Source: Chondrosia reniformis (Eukaryota; Porifera; Demospongiae; Chondrillida; Chondrillidae). Taken from it: a stretch of 64,000 nt of DNA. The position numbers were made by a program, and so were the translations under genes. Positions 3,619-64,000 of this stretch are shown piece after piece (the stretch's first letter is position 1; each line of letters starts with the position of its first letter). The notes under the pieces were generated by a model. It was given only the letters and a program-made list of their open reading frames with translations. It was not told where the DNA came from and ran no database searches. The stretch lies in the NCBI GenBank assembly GCA_947172415.1, contig OX359190.1, positions 3,844,001-3,908,000 of the forward strand, written 5' to 3'.

Positions 3619-4258
3619 GCCTGAGAGTAATGGAAATGAACGACTACCTGCTCCAATACCTCATGTGGTATGACCCAACGGCACTGAGGAGGCTTCTCTG
3701 CAATCGTTTTTCTCGCTTCTTCTTCAATTTTGGCATCTCTGCATATGGCTTTATGTCAGACGTTTTGCGGTTAAATTGTTAGCATCTACTACTGTAAATT
3801 CAAAGCTATATGGGTGCATATTACCTTTGAATACCTAACTTAGTAATACGGAGCATGCAAATCCTATTGACTTTAATGCATACTAAGAATGAGTAAATGG
3901 GTACAAAGACAAACAATAAGGTAAAGAATACTACATGTACGTATATGGTTTAAACGTCAATTGATTCATACGTATGTATATTTCACTTTAAGTAAGAGTG
4001 ATTTACATTTGTAACACACCAAATATTGTCATCTTCATTTGGCATCTGATGAAGACATTGTGTAAACAATCATTACATGGAAATGACGAATACACTTCAC
4101 TTGAAATTGTCTTATTCCATCGTGACAGAACTCTGGCTTTTGACATGTTTTTGTAGACGAAGTCTTACTAACTTAGGTGATTTTTTCTATGCTCTTCTTC
4201 ATTTTCATATTACTAAATATTTGTGAAATAAGAAGTATGGAAGAGGTGTCGAATATAA
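3619..4258. other. no gene seen
   Basis: AT-rich spacer with no coding signal or repeat recognised. Confidence 0.35.
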
Positions 4259-4400
4259 AACGAGTAGTTCGAGTTTAAAACTCGTAGGGCTCCTGCCCCC
4301 GAATTTATTCGAACTACTTGACCGCATCGTTGGGCTTTGATATACTATTCTTAATCCTAACGATTGAGGATTTCGGCTACAAAGGTTAAGTAAACAAATT
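4259..4400 (+). repeat. hairpin-capped repeat, copy A1 (5' fragment)
   Basis: This is the 5' part of the family whose full copies lie at 20168 and 34854. The outer stem (GTAGTTCGAGT paired with the matching TCGAACTAC) encloses a small stem and a GGGCTCCTGCCCC hairpin. The second block, CATCGTTGG...CTAACGATTGAGGA, is present. The element then decays and the 3' hairpin is missing. Confidence 0.7.
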
Positions 4401-6622: not shown

Positions 6623-7198
6623 CAGTTAAACCTCGATAAAGCGAACACAGTTAATGCGTAACACCGGTTAAGACGAACATATGCTCAGTCCCAGCTTTGT
6701 TACCATATAAATGTGTATAAATAAAGACTGCTTAGGATGAACACAGTTAACACGAAATCTTGGTTAGTACGTATGCATTCCTTGCCAACCTTTTCAAATA
6801 TATAACACATACACTTCCAGCCGCTGTTCATTTTTTACCAGCTATGGCTGCTAAGCAATCTTCTCTAACCCTGTCCAAGAAATTGGACATTTTAGCTGCT
6901 GTCGATAAGAAGAACACCACTATGACACAAATCGCAAAAACATTTGGTATTACCAAGACTACCTTATCGACCATCTTAAGGAACAAGGACAACATTAAGG
7001 AGGCATTTGAACAGTCTAAGTTCGAGCCTGGATGAAAGTATTTCAGGACAGCAGTGTACTAAGATCTAGAGGAAGCGTTCGTTAAGTGGATTGCTCAAGC
7101 AAGGAGTCTGAATATGCCATTTTCTGGGACATTAATTGTGGAAAAGGCTGATTCCTTAGCCAAGAAGTTCAGACATTCCAGCACTCCCAAGAGGTTTT
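6623..7198 (+). pseudogene. Tigger/pogo transposase N-terminal relic
   Basis: A second Tigger-type 5' end (TA then CAGTTAAACCTCGATAAAG) is followed at 6844 by MAAKQSSLTLSKKLDIL and IAKTFGITKTTLSTIL, the CENP-B/pogo N-terminal helix-turn-helix. The frame stops at 7033, but relic coding continues as FVKWIAQARSLNMP and EKADSLAKKF up to about 7195, the second (CENP-B type) DNA-binding region. No DDE catalytic part follows. The family call is firm; the copy is a truncated pseudogene. Confidence 0.75.
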
Positions 7199-7423
7199 AA
7201 CCTCAAACTACTTGTTTAATAATGCTTATATTCACCTTATAGGAAAACTACTCCTTCTATAGAAAGTATAAATAGAAGTCCGTTAAAATACTTACAAGTG
7301 AATGAAGTGGGAAGATGTAATGCATGCTCAAAACCTAAGCATTTATTTAGAAAGAATGATATAGTGTCTCTCCTGGTAGTCCTAACACCAATCATCCTAA
7401 TTCATATACTATCAAAAGCATTA

Positions 7424-19610: not shown

Positions 19611-20167
19611 ATTGAATGGCTCTATGCCAATCTAATTCTTTGAGTTTACCAGTGTTTTGGCTGCCACCTCTTGCATTGATTACCCAGATTTGTTGCCCTC
19701 ACCATTTGCCTTGGCATCAAGATGCCTTTAGGCTTTGGCGGTCTGGCTAGAGAAAGAATTCCACGCCCTCTTTTGCAGCTTTTGGAGGACGCAGTTCACC
19801 TCCAAGGATGACGTAACATGAAACAGGTGACTCATTACTCCCAAAGCACGGAATAATTTGTAATAACAGCTGCTAAGAATCGTATCATCAAAAGAAGCAG
19901 CTGAACTCCTGGAGATGAAACTATCCATAGAATACATGGTCCCATCACTCAATCATGCTTACCATGCCTATAAGATGACAAACCAGCACTCTTGCAAATG
20001 AACCTAGGGAAAAAGATCCGCTGGTCTGAGTGACAAATCCATGCAGCCTACCATGTGTATACTGGTACACTTTCAACCAATCAAAATCAACCGACCATGA
20101 ACATCTCAACTTTAAATAGCAACTAATAGTATGCACAATATAATAAACTGATCAATGTATATACAAA
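19611..20167. other. no recognised gene
   Basis: Two minus-strand open frames (19728-19952, 19945-20136) have ordinary amino-acid composition but no motif that I can name. They lie just downstream of the DIRS-like element and could be a decayed piece of it; I do not call a gene. Confidence 0.3.
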
Positions 20168-20558
20168 AACAATTATTTCGAGTTTAAAAACTCGTGGGGC
20201 TGCCACCCCCCGAATTAACTCGAACTACTTTGCCACATCGTTGGTATGTAATACATATATTCGTAATACTAACGATTGAGGACGCTTAAGTGTCCTGAAA
20301 TCGATAAATAACGATGGAAAAGGTTCGTTAACTAAAGCTTCCTAAACGTCGCCATTTGCAAAAACGATGTATTGATGTGTAAATTAAGTGTTACTATAGT
20401 TGCGTATGAATTCGTATTATACATTTATCGATGTATAAAATAAATGTTGTAATAGTTGCGTATGAACCCGTACTATATATATCTTTCTGTAACATGAAGC
20501 CGTACAATGTATTCGGCAAATGAAAACAATATAAGGGGCTGCCTGTGGCAGCCCCTAA
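20168..20558 (+). repeat. hairpin-capped repeat, copy A2 (full)
   Basis: Starts in a run of A with ATTTCGAGTTTAAAAACTCG, then GGGGCTGCCACCCCCC and the return arm of the outer stem (AACTCGAACTACTT). Next come CATCGTTGG...CTAACGATTGAGGA, the palindromic GGACGCTTAAGTGTCC, two GTTGCGTATGAA blocks, a TATATA run, CATGAAGCC, GAAAACAATATAA and the 3' hairpin GGGGCTGCCTGTGGCAGCCCC followed by TAATAA. It sits directly downstream of the tyrosine recombinase gene on the opposite strand. Confidence 0.85.
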
Positions 20559-20631
20559 TAAATTAATATATTAAAGTCACATCTTAATATGTACTGAAAT
20601 CAAACGTATAATATATACTCCAAATCAAGGA

Positions 20632-21840: not shown

Positions 21841-23640
21841 TCAATGATAAAGTCTGTATATGTAATGGGTCAGGTTTTCCCATGCTCCTCTGTCGGTGGC
21901 TAGTCTTCTCAGCATGTCTAGGTCTCTGGGGCTGGACAGTTTAAGGTTTCGGTATGTTGCATTCTGTGCAGCTGCTGTGCATAGTTCTTTCCTGATCACA
22001 GTCATCAGTCCGGTCTGGTGTCTTCCAACTCGTCCTTTCATTCCTGAGACTTTGGGTGGCATAACATATAGGTCTAGGGCAGCTTGAGCAGGGGACAGCG
22101 GTGGAAGTCGGAGCACATGCCCTAAGAGGTGCCATCTGGCTAGTCTAACATCCCAGGACAAAGGCTGTGTGTCACACTTTGTGTATAGCACTCCGTTGCT
22201 GATGCGATTGGGATAGAATACTTGGGCAAGTCGTCTCAGATGTCTACGGTGGGTTGCATCCAGTTTGTCAGACAAGAACTGAGTTAGTCGCCAAGTGCCA
22301 CTATTGTACAGCAGGATTGGATGGATGTATGCATTGCAGAGCCGCACTTTGATGGCAAGATTCACTCGGGATGCTCCCCACATTCCCTGCAGCTTTCTCA
22401 TCGAGAGCTGTGCCAGGTTGATACAAGCCTGTAGATCCACTACACAGACTAAACTTGAGCCTAAGGTCTTCATCTTCCTCCAGGCTTCATTGCTATGATC
22501 AGGAGAGCCTTTAGGAGCCAGGTAAATGTGGGTGCGCTCGGTCTTATCTTTGTTGACCTGCAAGCTCCACTCAGGAAGTTGGTCTGAGCATACCTCCAAA
22601 GCCTGCTTTAGATGTTGTTGAACAAAGCTAAGGAAGTCTAGATCATCTGCATCTGTGTTTCTAATGAAAGACCTCTACAAGCATCTTCCTGTGGAAGTGC
22701 AGGGAATCGTGGGCAAAGATCACGCATAGCTGCCTCATAGTAGCAGTTGAAGAGAATGGGACTGAGGCTATCACCCTGTGGAGTGCCAATGTTGGTTTCA
22801 AATGCTAGTGCTTCGACATTGCCTATGCGGACTTGAAGAGTAGTCTGGGTCAGGAGTGCCTGGACCATGCGGACCACATCCATGTCATTTGTCAATTCAC
22901 TAACTACATGCAGCAGTCGATGACTGTCTACTGTGTCAAAGGCACAAGAAAGGTCTATGCCTAGGATTTGTAGCTCCGTAACTTTGTCCTGTACCATGTT
23001 ATTCAACACACGTTTGGCAAAGACAAGGTCAGCCGTTAAGCGACCCTTCCGGAAAGCACTCTGAGAAGTGGGAATGTAGCTATCCACCTGTTCACTTACA
23101 CGCTCTAGGACTACCAAAGAGAAACCTTTATGGATAGAATTAAGCAGAACCACTGGACACAGATTTTTGAGTTCCCCTTTTGGCTTACCAGGTTTCTGCA
23201 GTGGGATGATCACTCCCTGTCCAATGGTACTATTCACTTCTCCTCTTTCAAAAATGTCATTCAGTACTCCAGCTATGTGTGCAGCTAAGGCAAACCCACC
23301 ATACTTCAATAACTCGTTGGGAATCTTGTCGGCGCCACATGCACGATGGCTTTTAAGGGTCTTCATGGCTCGAAATACTTCCTCTGGGGTAATGGGGTGA
23401 CATAGGGGCCTTGAAACCAGGGCATCCAGATCTTGTGCATTGGGGGACTTGAACTGGCCTTCAAAGAATCTACTCACTCGAGAGACTTGTTCGTTGGGAT
23501 CCACAATTCTCTCTCCTGCAATGTTATTTACCATTATACCATGGGCTACCTTCTGTAACTTCATCTCCTTAACAGCAGCAAACATCTTAGCCCCGTCATT
23601 GTGTAACTTCTCAAACGCATATGACAAAACCAAATCAGAA
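21841..23640 (-). pseudogene. LINE (non-LTR) reverse transcriptase and C-terminal region
   Basis: The RT domain begins around AFEKLHNDGAKMFAAVKEM and has HPITPEEVFRAMKTL, ACGADKIPNELLKYG, GVIIPLQKPGK, TSQSAFRKGRLTADL, the ILGIDLSCAFDTVDSHRLL motif A, and GTPQGDSLSPILF motif B. The catalytic YADD box is altered: after a one-base shift at about 22640 it reads NTDADDLDF, so Tyr is replaced by Asp. The rest (22599-21841) has VNKDKTERTHIYL, GSSLVCVVDLQACINLA, AYIHPILLYNSGTWRLT and the HLRRLAQVFYPNRISN region that follows RT in many LINEs. No endonuclease domain is seen upstream, as expected for a 5'-truncated insertion. Confidence 0.8.
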
Positions 23641-26600
23641 AATATCTCCAGAGGAATAGTTTTCTTTCGTTTATCTTTCTCATCCTTTAACTGATTCATG
23701 ATGTTCTTGGGGAGCAAATCCTGAAAATCCACCCAGTCCCCATTACGGATCTTCTCTACCAATTGACCGCGGATAGCCGGTAAGCCCCCACCAGAAACAA
23801 AACCAGGTTTCTTCACCTTAGCCTTTTTCTCCTCAGACTCATTTGCAATTTCCACTGGTAAATCCTTAGCAAGGGTACTAGTTCCCTCCACAATTCCCCC
23901 TTCAGTTTCTGGGGACACACCCGATAAGGTCCCGGCCTCTATAGCGATGTCAAAAATAAAAAAATAATAATGAGGACAACCAACCAATTGCAAAAGACTG
24001 TAAAAACTTGACATTCGTAAAAACTCAGTTAATATATCTCCATACAGAGTCATGAACCGCTAAAAACTTTCTACCGAAGAAAAAAAATCAATAAGATTGT
24101 AGGACAAAAGTCAGATAATTTATGTACATGATTATCTGGTAGATTCATGCACATATATACCACTCTAAGCTTTGCAAATGATAGATATAATCAAATGGAA
24201 ATAATTACAAATTTAAAATCCTATCCACTAGGATAATTATCCTTTTATTCTCAAGGGATGATATTCACTGAACTGAACAACCCTATCATGCTAAGGTACC
24301 TATATAGTAAAACGAAAAACTACCATACGTAACAATAATACTCAGTAAGTATCACATCAGCTCAAAGCTATCCATTCAAATGGTAAAAAATATTGCAAAA
24401 CCCTCAAAATCCCAAAAGTAGCCCAAATAAAATTTGACGATATAAAAACAAGTATTTTGAGTTTAAAACTCGTGGGGCTGCCGCCCCCCGAATCAACTCG
24501 CACTACTTGGCCGTATCGTTGGCATTTAATATATATATTCGTAATACTAACGATTGAGGACGCTTAAGTGTCCTAAACATTATAAATGGCGACAGAAAAG
24601 CTTCGTTAACTAAAGCTTCCTGAAAGCCGCCATTTGCAAAACGATGTATTGATGTATAAATTAAGTATTATAATAGTTGCGTATATATGAACCTGTATTA
24701 AATATATATCGACATATAAATTAAGTGTTATAATAGTTGCGTATCAACCCGTATTATATATATAGATATATATACTGGAATTTTTGCTGATAATGGCATC
24801 CAGATGCATCATCTTCAGTCTATACTTAGGTGTGAAAAGGTAATTGGAAGGCCATGTATTTAACCTTATATGATCTGTAGAGACTACTACTCTGTATGCA
24901 GCAGTTGAGAATTTCAGTGTGGCTAAAGTCTTGCAGCGTTTAATATACCTGATTGTGATTATTTTGGGAGTCATTTGCATCCGTATTATATTATATACCT
25001 CAGTGTGATTATCTTGGGAGTCACTTGCATCCGTGTATAAATTTGTAACTTGCACTGTGTAGTACTTGATTGTATTTAAACAAGCATAATATATAACACT
25101 CCTTATTCCTACACATGGACAATTGCAAGTAAAAAATGAATAAAAACATAAGAAGAGAAGACAGAGCTTTAATTACCAAAGTTTTAATAAGGTCGACTAA
25201 ACGAATTTCTTTTGCATCAGTATAGGGACAATTCTGCCTCAAAATTAACGGGAACGTATACAAATACGCTTAATCTCACCTTCACTACAACTCGCTTATT
25301 CGGTAGCCCCTTCTCGTAGGAGAGCGTCGACTAAGACAGAGCTTAAATTACCAAAGTACGAATTTCTTGTATCAATATATAGCAACAATTCTGGCTTAAA
25401 CTTAACATGAACGTATACAAATACGCTTTATCTAACCTTCGCTACAACTCGCTTATTCGGTAGCTCCTTCACGTAGGAGAGCGTCGACTTGTCATAGCCG
25501 TTCTCGAAAGGATGATCTCCTTTAGCAACGAGGCGGTGACGTTTTCGCAACGTCACAAGATTCACAAAATGTGTGTACGGAGCGACATACGAAGGTGTTG
25601 GTGACGCATTCGAAGAACATCACAATACATCACCAGCTTGCGCAATCGTAACTTTGAATTTTTCATTATATCTTGATTATTTTGCTCATTTAATTAAGCA
25701 AAACTTCGCCAGACGTTTCTTATACACATGTACCATGATATATGTTGATTTCACAGTTATCGGACAAACTGAAAATTTTTATCAATATAACACATGGTTT
25801 GCATATAAATTTCCCATAGGTTTTCTATAGTCCTAATATGCAAACTTTGTCCTCCGTTTTCTAAGAAACGGAGGCCTAAATCAAAAATCCCTTAATTTAA
25901 AATGAGTTTTATACCTTAAACTTTATGATGATATGCCCATTTTGTTTCTAGGTCCTTTCTTGGAGCCATATGAATTATTTATTTACTTATTTATATTATA
26001 TTATATTATATTAGATTAGATTACCTTTGTATATTGTAACTTGCACTGTATATATATATCTATATATTTATTTATTTATTTATTTATATTAGATTACCTT
26101 AGTATATTGTAACTTGTACTGTATATATATATATATATATCTTTCCGTAACATGAAGCCATACAACGTAATCGGCAAATGAAAACAATATAAGGGCACAG
26201 GCAGCCCCTAATAATCAACTACTACCAATATCCCTGCAACAGGAAAACATCAACCTCAAATTAACATATGCGTATCAAACTTAGAAGCCTTCACCAAAAC
26301 CTAACAATGCATGGGGTAAAATCTGGTACTATAAAGGCCAACTGTACAAGTCTACTTCAAAAACCCAACAATGTAGAAAGTACGGCACCATAGGCCAATC
26401 AACTTAATTCATTAGAACCCAACAATTGGGAAAATATGGCACTAGAGGCCAATTGACATCATGAACAAACCCAACAATTGGGTAAAATACAGCACTTGAG
26501 GCCAATTGATTTCAACAACTGGCAACCCAACAAGAGGGGCCATACTTTAATGGACTAGAGGCCAAATTACACGTCAGCAATAAAACTTGCCATGCAACTA

Positions 26601-34687: not shown

Positions 34688-34853
34688 AATAACTTTACAT
34701 GGACTTTATTTATTTATAATATCTATCAGTTAGTAATATATAAACTCATTGACTTGTTTTATTTGTTACTATTATTGTTATTATTGTTGTTATTGTTGTT
34801 ATTATTATAATAAAATAAAAAAAATAAAAATAAAAATAAAAAACAAGTAGTTC

Positions 34854-35229
34854 GAGTTTAAAAACTCGTGGGGCTGCCGCCCCCCGAATTTACTCGAACT
34901 ACTTGGCCTCATCGTTGGGCTTTGATATATTATTCTTAATCCTAACGATTGAGGACGCTTAAGTGTCCTGAAAATTATAAATAACGACAGAAAAGCTTCG
35001 TTAACTAAAGCTTCCTGAATGTCTCCATTTGTAAAAACGATGTATTGACGTATAAATTAAGTGTTACAATAGTTGCGTATGAACTCGTATTATACATAAT
35101 TTGATGTATAAAATGTGTTATAATAGTTGCGTATGAACTCATATTATATATATATATATATCCGTAACATGAAGCCATACATAAATCGCGTTATGAAAAC
35201 AATAGAGGGGGCTGCCTCTGGCAGCCCCT
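34854..35229 (+). repeat. hairpin-capped repeat, copy A4 (full, best preserved)
   Basis: A 376-base copy. The 5' cap CAAGTAGTTCGAGT pairs with ACTCGAACTACTTG and encloses a GAGTTTAAAAACTC hairpin and GGGGCTGCCGCCCC. Then come ATCGTTGGG paired with CCTAACGAT, GGACGCTTAAGTGTCC, AAAGCTTCGTTAACTAAAGC, two GTTGCGTATGAACTC blocks, TATATA, CATGAAGCCATAC, GAAAACAATA and the 3' hairpin GGGGCTGCCTCTGGCAGCCCC followed by TAAAAA. It begins after an A-rich run (34808-34853). Confidence 0.9.
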
Positions 35230-35245
35230 AAAAATAGAAAAAATT

Positions 35246-47106: not shown

Positions 47107-47526
47107 TTTTGGCGCCCCTATATTGTTTTCAGAAAATATATTAACATATGACTTCCTGTTCGTGACCTTGTATATATCTATATTTCTCTCGCCAAAATTG
47201 CAGATGCTCCGCTAGCTTCCTTTTCTAGCTTAAAATTAGCGTTCTCTTCCTTAGCGTCGAACATTGAACTAACGAAAAGGATTTAGAAACCATATTTACG
47301 AATACTAAAATCCATATTTATGAACGCTATGTAATGTAAAGCTTGCGTGAAAATGTTTTCTCCGGGATATGGCCTCGAAAAATTGACAGCATAAATCAAG
47401 AATCGACCGGAATCGGTCAACCGGACATCTAACTAGAACTGCACATCTAATTTGTGCCAGCCAAGTAGTTCGAGTTTTCTTAGGGGCGCCTGTGGTCTCA
47501 CGAGTTTTTTAGACTCAAAATACTTG
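47107..47526 (-). repeat. hairpin-capped repeat, copy B1 (subfamily B)
   Basis: Reverse orientation. The 3' hairpin is cut (GGCGCCCC remains, the partner arm is lost), then GAAAACAATAT, AGGAAGTCATATG, a TATATA run, the interior of subfamily B (CGAAAAATTGACAGC, AGAATCGACCGGAATCGG) and the 5' cap with GCCAAGTAGTTCGAGT, an internal GGGGCGCC and GAGTTTTTTAGACTC. The interior differs from subfamily A. Confidence 0.75.
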
Positions 47527-48146
47527 TTTAATAAAATGCCTCAAATCATTTATTAATTGGTCTTTTCCTGTAAAAAAAAGAATTTCATATGTCTTACTGG
47601 GAGTGTCTTCTTAGAAGCATTTCAGCCATGTATCTAGTGCTTTTCTTACACTTTCCAACATTTACAATTATACAAGAGACTGGTAAATTTAAATACAATT
47701 ACGATGTCATGTTAATTTATAATGAAATATGGTAAATGTATGTACTCTGGAATAGGATCATGATGATGATATGCTGTATTCTCTTGTATATAGTTCCTTT
47801 AACTGTTAATACTGTTTTCTTTTTAGGTAAGTAGTCTTTACAATATAGAGCTTCTTGGCACACTTTGTATCCAATCCACTTTCTTTCTCCTATCCCAGGC
47901 ATCTGGGATCTTGCAGTAGTGCCATGCTGTGAAATATGTCCCCTCCATCCACTTTATGTTATTATCATCCATGCCGACGTCTCTCATCTCCCCAATTGCT
48001 GGCTCTGCGGGGAAATAATCACAGTGGATAGCCACAAGATGTCCAATTTCCAGATTGCTGGTGTTCTCCACAGTTGTAATTAGGTTCTCTGGTGGCTAAT
48101 ATCTGCCAATGTATATTTGAAATGATTCCGATTTCAGATTAAGCAA

Positions 48147-48280: not shown

Positions 48281-48393
48281 GGCTTCACTTTGATATACAT
48301 ATATATAATACAGATTCATGCATAACTACTATAACACTTAATTTATATGTCAATACTTCATTTTTGCAGTGCCCCGCAAGTTTTGACCAATAG

Positions 48394-50975: not shown

Positions 50976-51760
50976 TCCATGTTGGAATCTTAAAATTTAC
51001 TTATCAAAGTACACTTACAACACGTGTTCCAAATGATTGGTGTAATTTCTTTCCAATTCTTTGGACTGCTCTTCATCATCATACAATTTCGATAGCTGGT
51101 CAGCATACTTGACACACAAGTCACATATGCTGAAACGGATCATCTGTATGGCATTGATGAAAAGTGGCACCTTATTGTGTACAAATCAACCTGTAACTAC
51201 CTTAAGAATTACATTTTTTAAAATCTCTGTTCCAGACTGCAACCAAATGCTGTAATGTGATGATGTCATCTGTGGAAAGTCCTTCTTCCTGTATTGAATC
51301 TGAGAAGACATTTTAAAGGTATTCTCATCACTCACTATAGATTTAGTTCAAAAAGCTAAGCATTTTACAGTGGACCCTAGCTTATCCGTACCATGAGTAT
51401 CAGTCCGTTCAGATTATCTGTCCTTTGGTTCCATTTTCTAATTAACGACACGAAATTTTCACTTGGAAAGATCTCGCCTACAGTACCAAGGGCTATTCAA
51501 TAACACAAACATGTGACAATCAAAAATTTAGTTTAAGTGTAAAAGTTCCTCGCTTGAAATATTCATTGAGGTAGTGTTTCTTTTGGCGCGTATCATATAT
51601 ACACATGTACAGCACAATAATTTTTCCTTCACATTTCTAATTGTTTCAGCTATCTGGGACATAGTCCAGTCTCATTGGGTCTTGATAGGCAAGGGGGTCC
51701 ACTCAACTCTAAAATAAATGTAGCTTGCTGAAAAATAGTGTATTCGATTATTTATATTTT

Positions 51761-51833
51761 TAGGGGCTGCCATAGGCAGCCCCTTATATTGTTTTCATTT
51801 GCCGATTATGTTCTACAGCCTCATGTTACAGAA

Positions 51834-51871
<38 letters not shown>

Positions 51872-52172
51872 CGGGTTCATACGCAACTGTTATAACACTT
51901 ATTTTATACGTCGATATATGTATAATACGAGTTCATATGTAACTATTGTTACACCTAATTTATACATCAATACATCGTTTTTGCAAATGGCGGCGTTCAG
52001 GAAGCTTTAATTAACGAAGCTTTTCCATCATTACTTATAAAATTCAGGACACTTAAGCGTCCTCAATGGTTAGTATTACGAATATATATATTAAATCCCA
52101 ACGATGCGGCCAAGTAGTTCGAGTTAATTCGGGGGGCGGAAGGCCCACGAGTTTTTAAACTTGAAATACTTG
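51761..52172 (-). repeat. hairpin-capped repeat, copy A5 (full)
   Basis: Reverse orientation, 412 bases. Its 3' hairpin reads GGGGCTGCCATAGGCAGCCCC; then CATGAGGCTGT, a 40-base TA run, two ATACGCAAC-type blocks, AATGGCGGCGTTCAGGAAGC, GGACACTTAAGCGTCC and the 5' cap ending AGTATTTCAAGTTTAAAAAC in sense orientation. It lies between the N-terminal and central exons of the DUF7869-like gene. Confidence 0.85.
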
Positions 52173-52999
52173 TTATGTATGGTATGCACCATAAAAAGGG
52201 TAACATCAATAACTTTCTACCTTAGCCGTTATTTTTAATATTTAACTCTAAATAACCGTAAAATGTTATGTCAGCATTATTGTGTAAACGATTACCCAAA
52301 AATGTTAACGTTTAACCAGTAAATGTAACTTTTTTATGACACGTACAATATGTAGAATGATCTGTGTTGTGTATTTCTTAGTTGGAATATCTTATCTATG
52401 TGACACACGCATGCTTTCATTATTTCATACACAAACTTCTTTTCAAAAAGTGAGGAAGATGAATTTGGTAAAGATGTGGCATCTTCTTCCCTAGCCTGTT
52501 GGCATAAGCCTCAAGCCAAGCTACCGTAGTTGTATGTTTTGTAGAGAGACATCTTGATGTCCTCATTCTGCCTGGAAGCTTCGCTGCACCACCCTGCAAT
52601 GCATCATATATGCACTTCAGCCGAGAATAACAGGTAGCAACTATTACAACTAATGCCTTCTCTCAACAACCAACTCTCTTTCCACTTAGATTTAGCTGCC
52701 TATTTTGGATTTTCCCTAATATGCAAATGTATAGGGAAAGCGAAAGAACTGGTACCATCCCTACATGGAGAGTACTACTGTACTCTCTGATAAGCACATA
52801 TGAAGGTACATGTATAAACGATTGGGTGATAAGTAAATTCAATATGACTTCAGTCTACCAGCCAGGATAAGGAACTGATTACTTGGCTGGTGTGGTGTTT
52901 TAATGTTAAATGTTCTCCAATGACATGCCTATAACATGTATTATTTGTGTACACTTAAGTATCCTAAGTGATTGAGATTCAGCAAGAAGTGTAATTTCG

Positions 53000-53080: not shown

Positions 53081-53165
53081 TGGGGCGCCATAGGCGCCCC
53101 TATATTGTTTTCAGAAATTATATTAACGTATAGCTTCCTGTTCGTAACCTTGTATATATATATAC
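53081..53165 (-). repeat. hairpin-capped repeat, copy B2 (3' fragment)
   Basis: Carries the 3' end only: GGGGCGCCATAGGCGCCCC, then ATATTGTTTTCAG, TATTAACGTATAGCTTCCTG and a TATATA run, where similarity stops. Confidence 0.75.
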
Positions 53166-57310: not shown

Positions 57311-57424
57311 TTGTTTTTTTATCTGTGTCATACCCGTCCACAAACTACGGTTATTACAATGTACATACAGTCAGCTGGTAGTCATACCACGGGACTATTG
57401 TAGCAGCTCTTAAAGTGTATTTTT

Positions 57425-57510
57425 AGGGGATGCCAATGGGCAGCTCGTATATTGTTTCCATTTCCCGATTACTGTATATGGCTTCAAGTTACAGAAAAAT
57501 AAATAGATAT
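57425..57510 (-). repeat. hairpin-capped repeat, copy A6 (3' fragment)
   Basis: Contains the 3' hairpin in worn form (GGGGATGCCAATGGGCAGCTC), ATATTGTTTCCATTTCCCGA and TTCAAGTTACAGAAA. The hairpin pairing is partly lost. It directly follows the Helitron helicase relic in that gene's sense. Confidence 0.65.
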
Positions 57511-59497: not shown

Positions 59498-61246
59498 TTA
59501 GTCATTAGCTAGATTAGCAATGGCTCCTGGCAACTCCATATTCCAATTTTCACTTACCTTGGACCTATTGGAAGATGGAGGCAAGTGGACATCCCCAACA
59601 TGTTGTTCTGTTGGAATGGCCTTTCTTTTTTTGCACACAGGGCAGCTGTACCATTTACCACTGGTATGTATAAATGTTAGCTTGTGCTCATAAGGCAGAG
59701 CTTTCAGGTATGCAGCTCCAGGTGCCTTTTCTATGGTAACATCCTTTGGAGGGGGTATAAGGCAAGTCCAACTGTTGTCTACAGTGGAATAGAGTATTTT
59801 CCCACATTTCCAGCAAACAGCCTTGCCAAGGGGCAAACTGTTGAATTTCTTTTGTTTAACCACGAGATTTTTAATCCTTTTAAGTTTGTCTTCTGATACA
59901 TTGAGGACGTTGCTATCAGTGCACAATTGTTCCTCAACTTCTTGATTTGTGCACATTTCTTTGCCCTCTCTTGTGTATGTCTGCTGACATTGTGCTGTAG
60001 TGTTGCTCCTTCTTGATTGCTGGTCTACAGCACCTAGACATCTTCCACCTGCTACACCAATATCATACCCAGCTTCAGCAGTGGTACCTGTGGGTCTGCC
60101 ACGACTTACATCATACCCAGCTTCAGCAGTGGTACCTGTGGGTCTGCCACCGGACTTACTTACGTCATACCCAGCTTCGGCAGTGGTACCTGCGGGTCTG
60201 CCACCGGACTTACTTACATCATACCCAGCTTCGGCAGTGGTACCTGCGGGTCTGCCACCACTTACATCATATCCAGCTTCGGCAGTGGTACCTGCGGGTC
60301 TGCCACCACTTACATCATATCCAGCTTTGGCAGTGGTACCTGCGGGTCTGCCACCACTTACATCATACCCAGTTTTGGCAGTGGAACCTGCGGGTCTGCC
60401 ACCACTTACATCATACCCAGCTTCAGCAGTGGTACCTGTGGGTCTGCCACCGGACTTACTTACATCATACCCAGCTTCGGCAGTGGTACTTGCGGGTCTG
60501 CCACCACTTACATCATACCCAGCTTTGGCAGTGGTACCTGTGGGTCTGCCACCACTTACATCATACCAAGCTTCAGCAGTGGTACCTGCGGGTCTGCCAC
60601 CGGACTTACTTACATCATACCCAGCTTCGGCAGTGGTACCTGCGGGTCTGCCACCGGACTTACTTACATCATACCCAGCTTCGGCAGTGGTACCTGTGGG
60701 TCTGCCACCACTTACATCATACCCAACTTTGGCAGTGGTACCTGCGGGTCTGCCACCACTTACATCATACCCAGCTTCGGTAGTGGTACCTGTGGGTCTG
60801 CCACCGGACTTACTTACATCATACCCAGCTTCGGCAGTGGTACCTGCGGGTCTGCCACCGGACTTACTTACATCATACCCAGCTTCGGTAGTGGTACCTG
60901 TGGGTCTGCCACCACTTACATCATAGCCAACTTTGGCAGTGGTACCTGCAGGTCTGCCACCACTTACATCATACCCAGCTTCGGTAGTGGTACCTGTGGG
61001 TCTGCCACCGGACTTACTTACATCATACCCAGCTTTGGCAGTGGTGCCTGTGGGTCTGCCATTCAAAACACTGTACCCAGCTGAAGCAGTTGTACCCAGA
61101 GGTCTACCCTTTGTCACTGTTTTACTCAATGTAGTGTTTTTTTTCGATTTAGATTTAAGAGCAGTGTTTGAACTGTTTTTGCTTAACATGCACACTTTTA
61201 TTACAATTATAGCAAGTTCTAAATAGGTTTCGCATGTTTTAGACAC
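59498..61246 (-). CDS. Helitron-linked protein with 21 GRP-type repeats and zinc-like C-terminus
   Basis: A 582-codon frame; the likeliest start is the second Met at 61189. It has a Lys-rich N-terminus, then 21 repeats of 16 or 18 residues of the form GRPxGTTAxAGYDVSG (18 with the SKSG ending), and a partial 22nd (GRCLGAV). GRP triplets are the core of AT-hooks, but the flanking residues here are not basic. The C-terminal 170 residues hold CWKCGKILY...CLIPPPK and WYSCPVCKKRKAI, a possible zinc-binding unit. It leads, after one stop, into the Helitron N-terminal region, so it is probably the front of the Helitron replicase. The repeat tract is uninterrupted. Its function is unknown. Confidence 0.65.
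   Translation of the reverse strand: MSKTCETYLELAIIVIKVCMLSKNSSNTALKSKSKKNTTLSKTVTKGRPLGTTASAGYSVLNGRPTGTTAKAGYDVSKSGGRPTGTTTEAGYDVSGGRPAGTTAKVGYDVSGGRPTGTTTEAGYDVSKSGGRPAGTTAEAGYDVSKSGGRPTGTTTEAGYDVSGGRPAGTTAKVGYDVSGGRPTGTTAEAGYDVSKSGGRPAGTTAEAGYDVSKSGGRPAGTTAEAWYDVSGGRPTGTTAKAGYDVSGGRPASTTAEAGYDVSKSGGRPTGTTAEAGYDVSGGRPAGSTAKTGYDVSGGRPAGTTAKAGYDVSGGRPAGTTAEAGYDVSGGRPAGTTAEAGYDVSKSGGRPAGTTAEAGYDVSKSGGRPTGTTAEAGYDVSRGRPTGTTAEAGYDIGVAGGRCLGAVDQQSRRSNTTAQCQQTYTREGKEMCTNQEVEEQLCTDSNVLNVSEDKLKRIKNLVVKQKKFNSLPLGKAVCWKCGKILYSTVDNSWTCLIPPPKDVTIEKAPGAAYLKALPYEHKLTFIHTSGKWYSCPVCKKRKAIPTEQHVGDVHLPPSSNRSKVSENWNMELPGAIANLAND
60041..61100. repeat. coding minisatellite, 48/54-base units
   Basis: The DNA behind the GRP repeats: alternating 48- and 54-base units sharing GGTCTGCCACC(GGACTTAC)TTACATCATA and CCAGCTTCGGCAGTGG on the + strand. 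A four-unit higher-order pattern (48-48-54-54) occurs twice in a row. All units are multiples of three, so antisense frames are open too (60000-60926, 60013-60783); I do not consider these genes. Confidence 0.9.
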
Positions 61247-62217: not shown

Positions 62218-62360
62218 TCTTTAACTTGAAGGTGTAATAATATCTATTAATTAGCGCAGCTATAGTGTTTATAGGTACGAGCCATATGTATGTTCATATA
62301 TCCCTAAATCTTCACTATTTTTATGAATTACTTATATTAAGCAAATTAAAAATATTTAAA

Positions 62361-62764
62361 ACAAGGAGTTCGAGTTTAAAAAACTCGTGGGGTGCCAGGT
62401 GCCCCTAAACTACTTGGCTGGTTCTTATAGATATCCGGTTAACCGATTTCCGATCGACTCTTGTTGGCCGTCAATTTTTCAAGGCCGTATCTCGTAGAAA
62501 ACGTTTTTGCGCAAGTATTAGTAAGGGTGGTTTTTAAGTCCATTTCGTTCGTTCAATGTTCTACGCTAAGGAAGAGAAAGCTAATTTTAAGCTAGAAAAC
62601 GAAAGCTAGCCGCACGTCCGCCATTTTTTGACAGATATATATATATACAGTGCAAGTTACAATATACTATATATATATATATATATATATATACAAGACT
62701 ACGAACAGGAAGCCATACGTTAACATAATTACTGAAAACAATATAGGGGCGCCTGAGGCGCCCC
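62361..62764 (+). repeat. hairpin-capped repeat, copy B3 (full, subfamily B)
   Basis: A 404-base copy. 5' cap: ACAAGGAGTTCGAGTTT...AAACTCGTGGGGTGCC and AACTACTTGG. The interior has CCGATCGACTC, CAATTTTTCAAGGCC, CTAGCC and two TATATA runs around CAGTGCAAGTTACAATATAC. The 3' end has AGGAAGCCATACGTTAACAT, GAAAACAATATA and GGGGCGCCTGAGGCGCCCC. A foldback element follows immediately. Confidence 0.85.
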
Positions 62765-63088
62765 AAAAATGAAATTAGAAGTAGGGATGGCCCATGCAAC
62801 AAATGGCAAACACATCTGGAAAGAGTAGCAAAACAAGAGAGTGACCATGTGATAAGGCATACTGAAATTTAAGTGACTTAACAATACACATCACTTCTAT
62901 GTTTGGGCGCACCAGTATCATGATAGCTGAAGTAGGGATGATGCGCCCAAGCATAGAAGTGATGTGTATGGTTAAGTCACTTAAATTTCAGTATGCCTTA
63001 TCACATGGTCACTCTCTTGTTTTGCTACTTTTCCCAGATGTGTTTGTCATTTCTTGCATGGGCCATCCCTACTTCTCATTTCATTTTT
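62765..63088. mobile_element. foldback (long inverted repeat) element, 324 bases
   Basis: Arms of about 147 bases (62765-62911 and 62941-63088) are near-perfect reverse complements around a ~29-base loop. Outer ends: AAAAATGAAATTAGAAG / CTTCTCATTTCATTTTT; inner ends: TTTGGGCGCA / TGCGCCCAA. Each arm contains GTGACCATGTGATAAGGCAT or its complement. A few mismatches show it is recent. No target duplication was seen, because the left edge abuts the hairpin of repeat B3. Confidence 0.85.
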
Positions 63089-64000
63089 TAACTGTTTTTA
63101 TTTTGCTTGTTTCCCCCCTTTTTTCTTAATATTATTTGTTAAAATTTATTTTGTACGTTTTCTCTTAGCGATAAATTTCCAAAGAGAGAAAGAGAGAGCA
63201 GATACCCCAGAAATCTTAAATGGCATCCGAAAAGGTCCCACTCTTAAGACCTTCAGAAATAACATGCTTCATGTAGAACGCGTTCAAACCTAGTGTAGTC
63301 TATTCCCTGGTTCAGGTTCGATTTCGTACAATTTCTAACAAAGGTAATAGGGTATTTCCTTCGACAGGAGCGGTAGCTCGAGAAAAGAAAAAATAATAAG
63401 ACTGAGAAAGTGAGGAATTTTTCAAGATGGTGGCTTTTGGTTTTTCGTTCGCTGCTGGTCTTACTCTTATTTAATGGTTATCTCTGAACTTTATGTATAA
63501 TTCAATTACAATTCGAGCGCTCCTTCATGATGAGTGCTACAGTTGACCATACATTACATAGGGCGGCCATTTTTTGTGGCCATCCCTACTAATGAGTACT
63601 ACCGTACTCTATGATATGAATATTGTAACTTTTAAAATATTCCTAGTTTCTGTATATTTTATGGAGCATGAGCTAGGAAGTATAAAATTAATTCTGTTTC
63701 CGTTTTGCAATCTTCAACTCAATATGATGTCATTGAAGTAGCAAAATTGCATGTTAATTATTATTCTTGAAAGACTGAATACATATGATTTTGGTATGTT
63801 GCACTGATGAGGGCTAATGAGCCCGAAACAGCTGAATTCTGCTAAACATGCATATACATGTTTGCGATCAGTTGTCTGCAACTCCTTTTTTTCTAACACA
63901 CTGTACAAGTGTGCAAATTCTTAAACCTTTTTCATTCTATGTAACTTTTTTCTTTCTATATATATACAGTGCAAGTTACAATATACTAAGGTAATCTAAA
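63089..64000. other. no gene seen
   Basis: About 900 bases with a purine-rich AGAGAGAAAGAGAGAG run at 63183 and, at 63958-64000, the short dispersed motif CAGTGCAAGTTACAATATAC also present at 26030, 26100 (inverse) and 62655. No coding signal. Confidence 0.4.

Follow-up and report, generated by a model that had tools for sequence, protein, structure and literature searches.

Rolling-circle transposons of the Helitron2 type, which are non-canonical and hairpin-ended, have been described as having a 5' ATIR located 0–2 bp from the 5' end within a hairpin, a T at the 5' end, and a Rep-helicase partner; compensatory changes between two related members of the group were published in 2013, and the Chlamydomonas CRe elements in the same source are associated with duplications of 7–19 bp (PMC3627910). 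HINE/DINE-1 elements, that is, non-autonomous Helentrons, are T-rich, insert at TT, carry palindromic subterminal repeats, a microsatellite and central repeats, and originate from a Rep-helicase element (PMC4067079). FoHeli1 and FoHeli2 from Fusarium oxysporum have hairpins at both termini, an inverted repeat in the 3' hairpin, and an AT-rich target, given as TNAT followed by A (by T in a figure legend); the same source reports circles with joined ends for FoHeli1 and names an endonuclease as the domain that Helentrons have additionally (PMC5148889). Cg_HINE elements of the Pacific oyster are non-autonomous, with a microsatellite and satellite-like central repeats, T-rich sites and no duplication, and could be tied to no autonomous partner (PMC7492417).

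In a 64,000-nt stretch of the Chondrosia reniformis genome (further called the window) we have identified repeats of two subfamilies, A and B, that resemble these systems in structural features, and Helitron2 also in the compensatory changes between related elements. Still, there are differences. At the A/B 3' end, the ATIR and the hairpin lie inside an additional outer stem, unlike Helitron2 as described in PMC3627910, and no duplications of the CRe kind are seen at the A/B sites read. The 3' repeat is 28–29 bp from the end, compared to 38–60 bp in HINE/DINE-1 (PMC4067079), and no endonuclease was found in the examined coding partners; FoHeli1 and FoHeli2 differ in host, sequence, and the position of the 3' repeat, 38–51 bp from the end (PMC5148889). 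Finally, B is tied to an autonomous partner, unlike the oyster HINEs as presented in PMC7492417.

With a probability of approximately 0.94, A and B represent two subfamilies of non-autonomous elements within a Helitron2-type family of rolling-circle transposons, mobilized in trans. The placement in Helitron2 is a probable one, made from termini and domains as read in the sequence: the ATIR positions, the hairpins and the coding partner of B, together with the lack of an endonuclease in the open frames scanned and the non-canonical ends, point to a Helitron2-type element, HINE-like in build. The original prediction of a non-autonomous rolling-circle element agrees with Rep/helicase loci having the same ends, but the suggested novelty in kind does not hold, as the elements fit the Helitron2 group as published (PMC3627910). 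The family is not named in the open-licence literature that we searched, by which we do not claim its absence from print.

The A query matches 12 separate places in the window, comprising three near-full A copies, one full B copy, and eight truncated copies or fragments (Table 1). In the genome (117.4 Mb, 15 contigs), at least 43 matches were found for the window interval 34854–35229, this being a lower bound, as scoring was limited to the best 40 of 1371 first-look candidates; all 40 are 90–100% identical to the query across most of its length. The terminal 21-mer pattern ACAAGKAGTTYGAGTTTAAAA has 370 exact genome matches, compared to none for the backwards-read control. The presence of a repeat copy in this interval, with relatives far above chance, had been recognized correctly from the start. 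Paired ends were analyzed in 60 copies with both ends found by BLAST (a stricter expression yielded 38). The sampled copies are mostly the best genome matches, which biases the sample toward young copies; 20 of the sampled loci are from one contig, and 11 of these (L084–L094) have one common flank.

A variant with the B 3' end on another body (containing AATTCATATGGCTCCAAGAAAG) is seen in L052, L059, L060, L062 and L064–L068, and a piece of this body is also present, reversed, near window position 25960. A degenerate 13-bp tandem repeat (ACTAGTTGTATGT) flanks L011, L016, L020, L042, L069 and L072. Elsewhere in the window, an open frame at 59501–61246 on the minus strand matches DUF5568 (PF17724, E-value 6.1e-75, seven stretches) and contains a 48-bp tandem array at 60062–61061, and a reverse transcriptase domain (RVT_1, E-value 9e-14) at 22641–24059, also on the minus strand, marks a retroelement. 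In the 17,451-base contig C15, the first 9 kb look like mitochondrial COX1, COX2, CYTB and ND4, with AGR seemingly at positions usual for Arg, and ARAGORN identifies tRNAs for Met, Pro, Glu and Asp; this appears sponge-like and led to the rejection of a tunicate (Ciona) origin.

Table 1. Features of the A/B family in the window. Positions are counted from the first nucleotide of the window; "sense" refers to the element strand.
Feature	Position	Strand	Basis or match
A element, complete, 388 bp	34842–35229 (A-query match 34839–35235)	–	sequence read in corrected orientation
A 5'-terminal hairpin, sense GGGGCTGCC-AGA-GGCAGCCCC; first arm is the 5' ATIR, 1 bp from 5' end	35208–35228	–	
A 3' ATIR, sense GGCAGCCCC; inverted copy of the 5' ATIR, 28 bp from 3' end	34870–34878	–	
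A 3' inner hairpin CGAGTTTTTAAACTCG, adjoins 3' ATIR	34853–34868	–	read from sequence
A 3' cap outer stem: AAGTAGTTCGAGT (34845–34857) with ACTCGAACTACTT (34892–34904)	34845–34904	–	sequence, fold
A central 54-bp tandem repeat, 2.0 units, adjoins TA microsatellite	35045–35152	–	
A copy, full length	20165–20561	–	A-query match
A copy, full length	51756–52174	+	A-query match
A copy without element 5' end	24444–24772	–	A-query match
A fragment, 3' end	4257–4370	–	A-query match
A fragment, 5' end	26123–26215	–	A-query match
A fragment, 5' end	57419–57510	+	A-query match
A fragment, body	48293–48368	+	A-query match
B element, complete, 405 bp, non-autonomous relative of Rep/helicase-coding E2	62360–62764 (match 62356–62770)	–	
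B-type copy, degenerate, 5' hairpin half lost	47111–47529	+	A-query match
B fragment, 5' end	53082–53164	+	A-query match
Short fragment, 3' end	7186–7217	+	A-query match
Paralogous empty site for the window B copy (CATTTTTTAAC)	63009–63108	.	joined flanks 90.2% over 102 bp
Empty site for B copy L083 (contig C1)	31319–31477	.	97.5% over 159 bp

In both subfamilies, the cap is the 3' end of the element, and the hairpin, the 5' end. The Rep-like domain PF14214 (Helitron_like_N) yields 133 matched stretches in the genome (a single copy can account for more than one stretch), and none in 14 control genomes, which is a weak control. At three Rep matches (C2:5441509, C2:4158857 and C1:4924295) the cap pattern is found 5.2 kb downstream on the opposite strand, which makes the cap the 3' terminus of a Rep-coding element. 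As the coding elements E1, E2 and E3 end in the cap and E2 begins with the hairpin, A and B are non-autonomous elements of approximately 0.4 kb, on the minus strand of the window. Thus the orientation initially proposed, with a 5' cap and a 3' hairpin, has to be reversed, and other details change as well. The true element end is 12 bp before the initially suggested start at 34854. CTAA/TAAA after the hairpin, which had been compared to a Helitron 3' end, is on the other strand a T-rich 5' boundary. The inner GGGGCTGCC..CCCC arms proposed for the A cap do not form a proper hairpin: none of the 34 A copies has a perfectly matching arm nearby, and in the DNA fold of the window A copy this region is paired differently.

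The terminal hairpins themselves are as originally described, GGGGCTGCC/GGCAGCCCC in A and GGGGCGCC/GGCGCCCC in B, with 41 and 93 exact anchored genome matches, respectively, all with 3-base loops. Folding of both ends as single-stranded DNA, which the original prediction had called for, favors structure: each of the four tested ends was better than 200 of 200 shuffles (z-scores –8.7 for the A cap, –4.3 for the A hairpin, –3.2 for the B cap, –5.4 for the B hairpin). The 5' ATIR is within the 5'-terminal hairpin at a distance typical of Helitron2 (0–2 bp), being 1 bp from the end with a 9-bp stem in A, and 0–1 bp (ambiguous because of a T run) with an 8-bp stem in B. The 3' ATIR is 28 bp (A) or 29 bp (B) from the 3' end and is followed by the CGAGTTTTTAAACTCG hairpin.

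The open frames of E1, E2 and E3 each contain DUF6570, Helitron_like_N, PIF1, Pif1_2B and OTU domains. Among solved structures, the helicase part of E2 has matches to PIF1 chains and to chain 7lcc of the Helraiser transposase. The E2 open frame contains RGSPHVH and YICSYMCK, the putative HUH and tyrosine motifs of its Rep. E2 (C2:5433073–5447366, 14.3 kb) is the sole coding element followed across both ends, and both are common with B: positions 2–340 of B (sense) match positions 574–908 of E2 with 79% identity, covering the 5' end and the body, and the 3' termini are 97% identical over 29 bp. Hence B has the ends of an element with a Rep and a Pif1-like helicase. The original prediction was to be considered refuted if the copies turned out to be the ends of one known autonomous transposon; for B, this applies in the sense that its ends are those of a coding element.

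The E1 terminus, CCAAGTAGTTCGAGTTTGCATA-GGGGCGCC-A-GGCGCCCC-CACGAGTTTTTTAAACTCGAACTACTTGTT, is the reverse complement of the B cap, and the E3 terminus is the same with small changes; the 3' ATIRs of both are B-type, and the 3' end of E2 has no GC hairpin. A match to the E2 5' end is found for E1 at C1:4909039, 15.2 kb before its Rep on the same strand, from which E1 would be approximately 20.9 kb long, including a 31-bp tandem array; in E3 the 5' end is matched only partially. On C13, the E2 5' end is found again 8.6 kb upstream of a Rep match, on the same strand; this locus is probably in part a duplicate of the E2 insertion. Arrays of the 31-bp repeat are observed in Rep-coding elements, with approximately 97 units in E1 and 31 units in E3 (L071/L073 on C1, L074/L070 on C2), and imply variable element length.

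The link of A to coding elements is less complete: the termini common with E2 are limited to the last 26 bp and a weak match near the 5' end (75% over 72 bp). No A-type coding partner was found among E1–E3 and the C13 locus, where the A-type 3' end is a part of an inserted whole A copy.

Insertion sites were defined by comparison with empty copies, as had been suggested originally, and reveal insertion between T and T without duplication beyond 0–2 T, with ends ambiguous in T runs. In six filled/empty comparisons, filled sites have 0–2 extra T and no other duplication (the element end counted as CTTGT); the exact ends and the target share of the T run are ambiguous within homopolymers. The window B copy has CATTTTT[B]TTTAAA at the filled site and CATTTTTTAAC at the empty one, and the L083 junction CCCTCTTTTTACTGG is the same as in its empty site in the window after removal of the element. 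Two A copies have inserted within T6 of a B 3' palindrome (L038 compared to empty L055, 92% over 126 bp) and within an A-like copy (L019 compared to L026, 83% over 195 bp), and L017 provides a weaker comparison. In the sixth (L096), A has inserted into the 3' palindrome of the C13 Rep-coding element, for which E2 provides the empty site: GAGTTTTTTAAACTCG there corresponds to GAGTTTTT-[A...CTTGTT]-TAAACTCG at the filled site. C13 and E2 are 98.4% identical over 63 bp that include the 3' terminus and about 37 bp of flanking sequence, and hence probably go back by duplication to a single insertion. A has twice invaded the same T6 in the 3' terminal palindrome of a relative, in the Rep-coding L096 (C13:3358620–3359220) and in the B copy L038. 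The empty-site scan covered the 15 best candidates, of which four were cleanly readable and 11 were in tandem repeats or ambiguously aligned. Among the 49 of 60 copies that passed the boundary and duplicate-flank filters, all have T at both –1 and –2, and either T or A at each of –3 and –4, the background frequency of T in flanks being 0.34.

Pairing of arms was counted in 59 copies with ends of one type (34 A and 25 B, excluding the mixed-end L067), using the best of seven loop lengths and a shift of at most one base, which favors pairing. The 5' arm forms Watson–Crick pairs with its hairpin partner at 265 of 306 positions in A and 184 of 200 in B, and with the 3' ATIR at 266 of 306 and 177 of 200, respectively; for the 3' ATIR and its local upstream arm the values are 127 of 306 in A and 177 of 200 in B. 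The 5' arm is misplaced or truncated in two A and two B copies; without them, the same three pairings have 263, 264 and 119 of 288 pairs in 32 A copies, and 180, 171 and 169 of 184 in 23 B copies. The subfamilies differ by one extra T–A step in the 5' arm, its partner and the 3' ATIR, the fourth arm of A being unmatched, and hairpins with mixed arms and a 3-base loop are absent from the genome (unanchored pattern, compared to the anchored matches, 41 for A and 93 for B). Complementarity within the 5' hairpin and between both ends goes together, as approximately one event. The claim that the arms changed together is therefore correct for three of the four arms, while the fourth arm of A did not follow. 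The further claim, of selection on the fold rather than shared descent, is plausible and no more, given approximately one compensated change between A and B and arm changes inside A that are mostly uncompensated (e.g., L015, L022, L036); an R-scape-type covariation test, as suggested originally, would for these reasons have little power. In the B-like L075, a paired G–C has changed to A–T, both sides being CpG sites.

The 3-base loops of the 41 exact A hairpins are ATA (11), ACA (10), TGT (8), TAT (4) and others (8). The loop, located at 35217–35219 in the window copy, occurs in both orientations (ACA/TGT, ATA/TAT) among similar copies. The middle base of the loop follows the outer pair, with a pyrimidine in 21 of 24 A..A loops and a purine in 12 of 13 T..T loops (Fisher's p = 2.8e-6, for a test chosen after seeing the loops, with four of 41 loops left out and copies that are not independent). 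The score of reverse-complement-matched loops is 12, compared to the shuffle mean of 9.9, and was reached in 2406 of 20,000 column shuffles. On a weakly resolved tree of 34 copies, the inverted state requires six changes, at least two of them forced by well-supported branches, and is somewhat clustered, as few changes being seen in 20 of 500 shuffles. Inverted loops are absent among the 93 matched B hairpins, and a single TAT loop is observed in L054, a B copy with an imperfect arm. Loop orientation in A may reflect recurrent hairpin inversion, perhaps during transposition.

An alternative explanation of the matching A and B hairpins is that the arms have been copied onto each other, by self-templated repair or conversion between the ends, rather than maintained by selection on independent compensating mutations. 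The joint change of three arms, the lack of mixed arms, and the A loops in both orientations (ACA and TGT, ATA and TAT) with repeated changes on the tree make this conceivable, but we find it doubtful, as the matched-loop score is no better than in column shuffles, B hairpins have no inverted loops apart from L054, and the inverted state is clustered. Fold-back templating, in which physical copying of one end from the other during transposition would keep the two matched, seems unlikely. The class of the elements may also be disputed, A and B being HINEs of a true Helentron whose endonuclease has been lost, lies outside the parts read, or is too diverged to be recognized in E1–E3. T|T insertion without duplication (0–2 extra T, ambiguous in T runs), palindromic subterminal repeats, the microsatellite and the central tandem repeats are indeed features of HINEs as described in PMC4067079 and PMC7492417. 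However, no endonuclease family is found in any of the 29 open frames (100 aa or longer) from the parts of E1–E3 read (E1 and E3 without their 5' parts), and the 3' ATIR at 28–29 bp from the end is within the range given for Helitron2 (20–30 bp) and not that given for mite HINEs (38–60 bp), so we consider this assignment rather unlikely.

More distant classes are less compatible with the data. A cut-and-paste MITE with palindromic ends would also be short and AT-rich with near-terminal inverted repeats, but is very improbable given the absence of a fixed-length duplication, the asymmetry of the inverted repeats (1 bp compared to 28–29 bp from the ends), and the Rep and helicase of the coding partner. 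A structured-RNA retroposon or SINE, one of the possibilities offered originally, is scarcely credible: both ends do have hairpins and coding capacity is lacking, but the window has neither an Rfam match at the gathering score nor a tRNA, no target duplication is present at the empty sites read, and the ends are common with a Rep/helicase element. Canonical Helitron1 (5' TC, 3' CTRR, A/T insertion, no 5' hairpin) was considered and rejected, as A and B start with T(A)GGGG, end with CTTGTT, occupy T|T sites and have a 5' hairpin.

For Helitron2-type elements mobilized in trans, we infer the following course. The Rep-helicase from coding relatives would recognize the A and B ends and nick at the T/hairpin 5' end; one strand would then be copied by rolling-circle replication toward the 3' end and stop there, and the product would be joined into a T-tract without target duplication. 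The stop may be set, as hypothesized in PMC3627910, by pairing between the 5' and 3' ATIRs, which would open the 5' hairpin.

These results establish what this abundant repeat family is, how it is oriented and where it ends, and tie the B subfamily to a coding partner. Fold-back templating, if true, would explain both the joint change of three arms without the fourth and the two orientations of the A loop. In A, end-to-end complementarity is kept without the local 3' GC hairpin, and the contrast between A and B offers a natural way to test the published proposal that pairing between the 5' and 3' ATIRs sets the end of replication.
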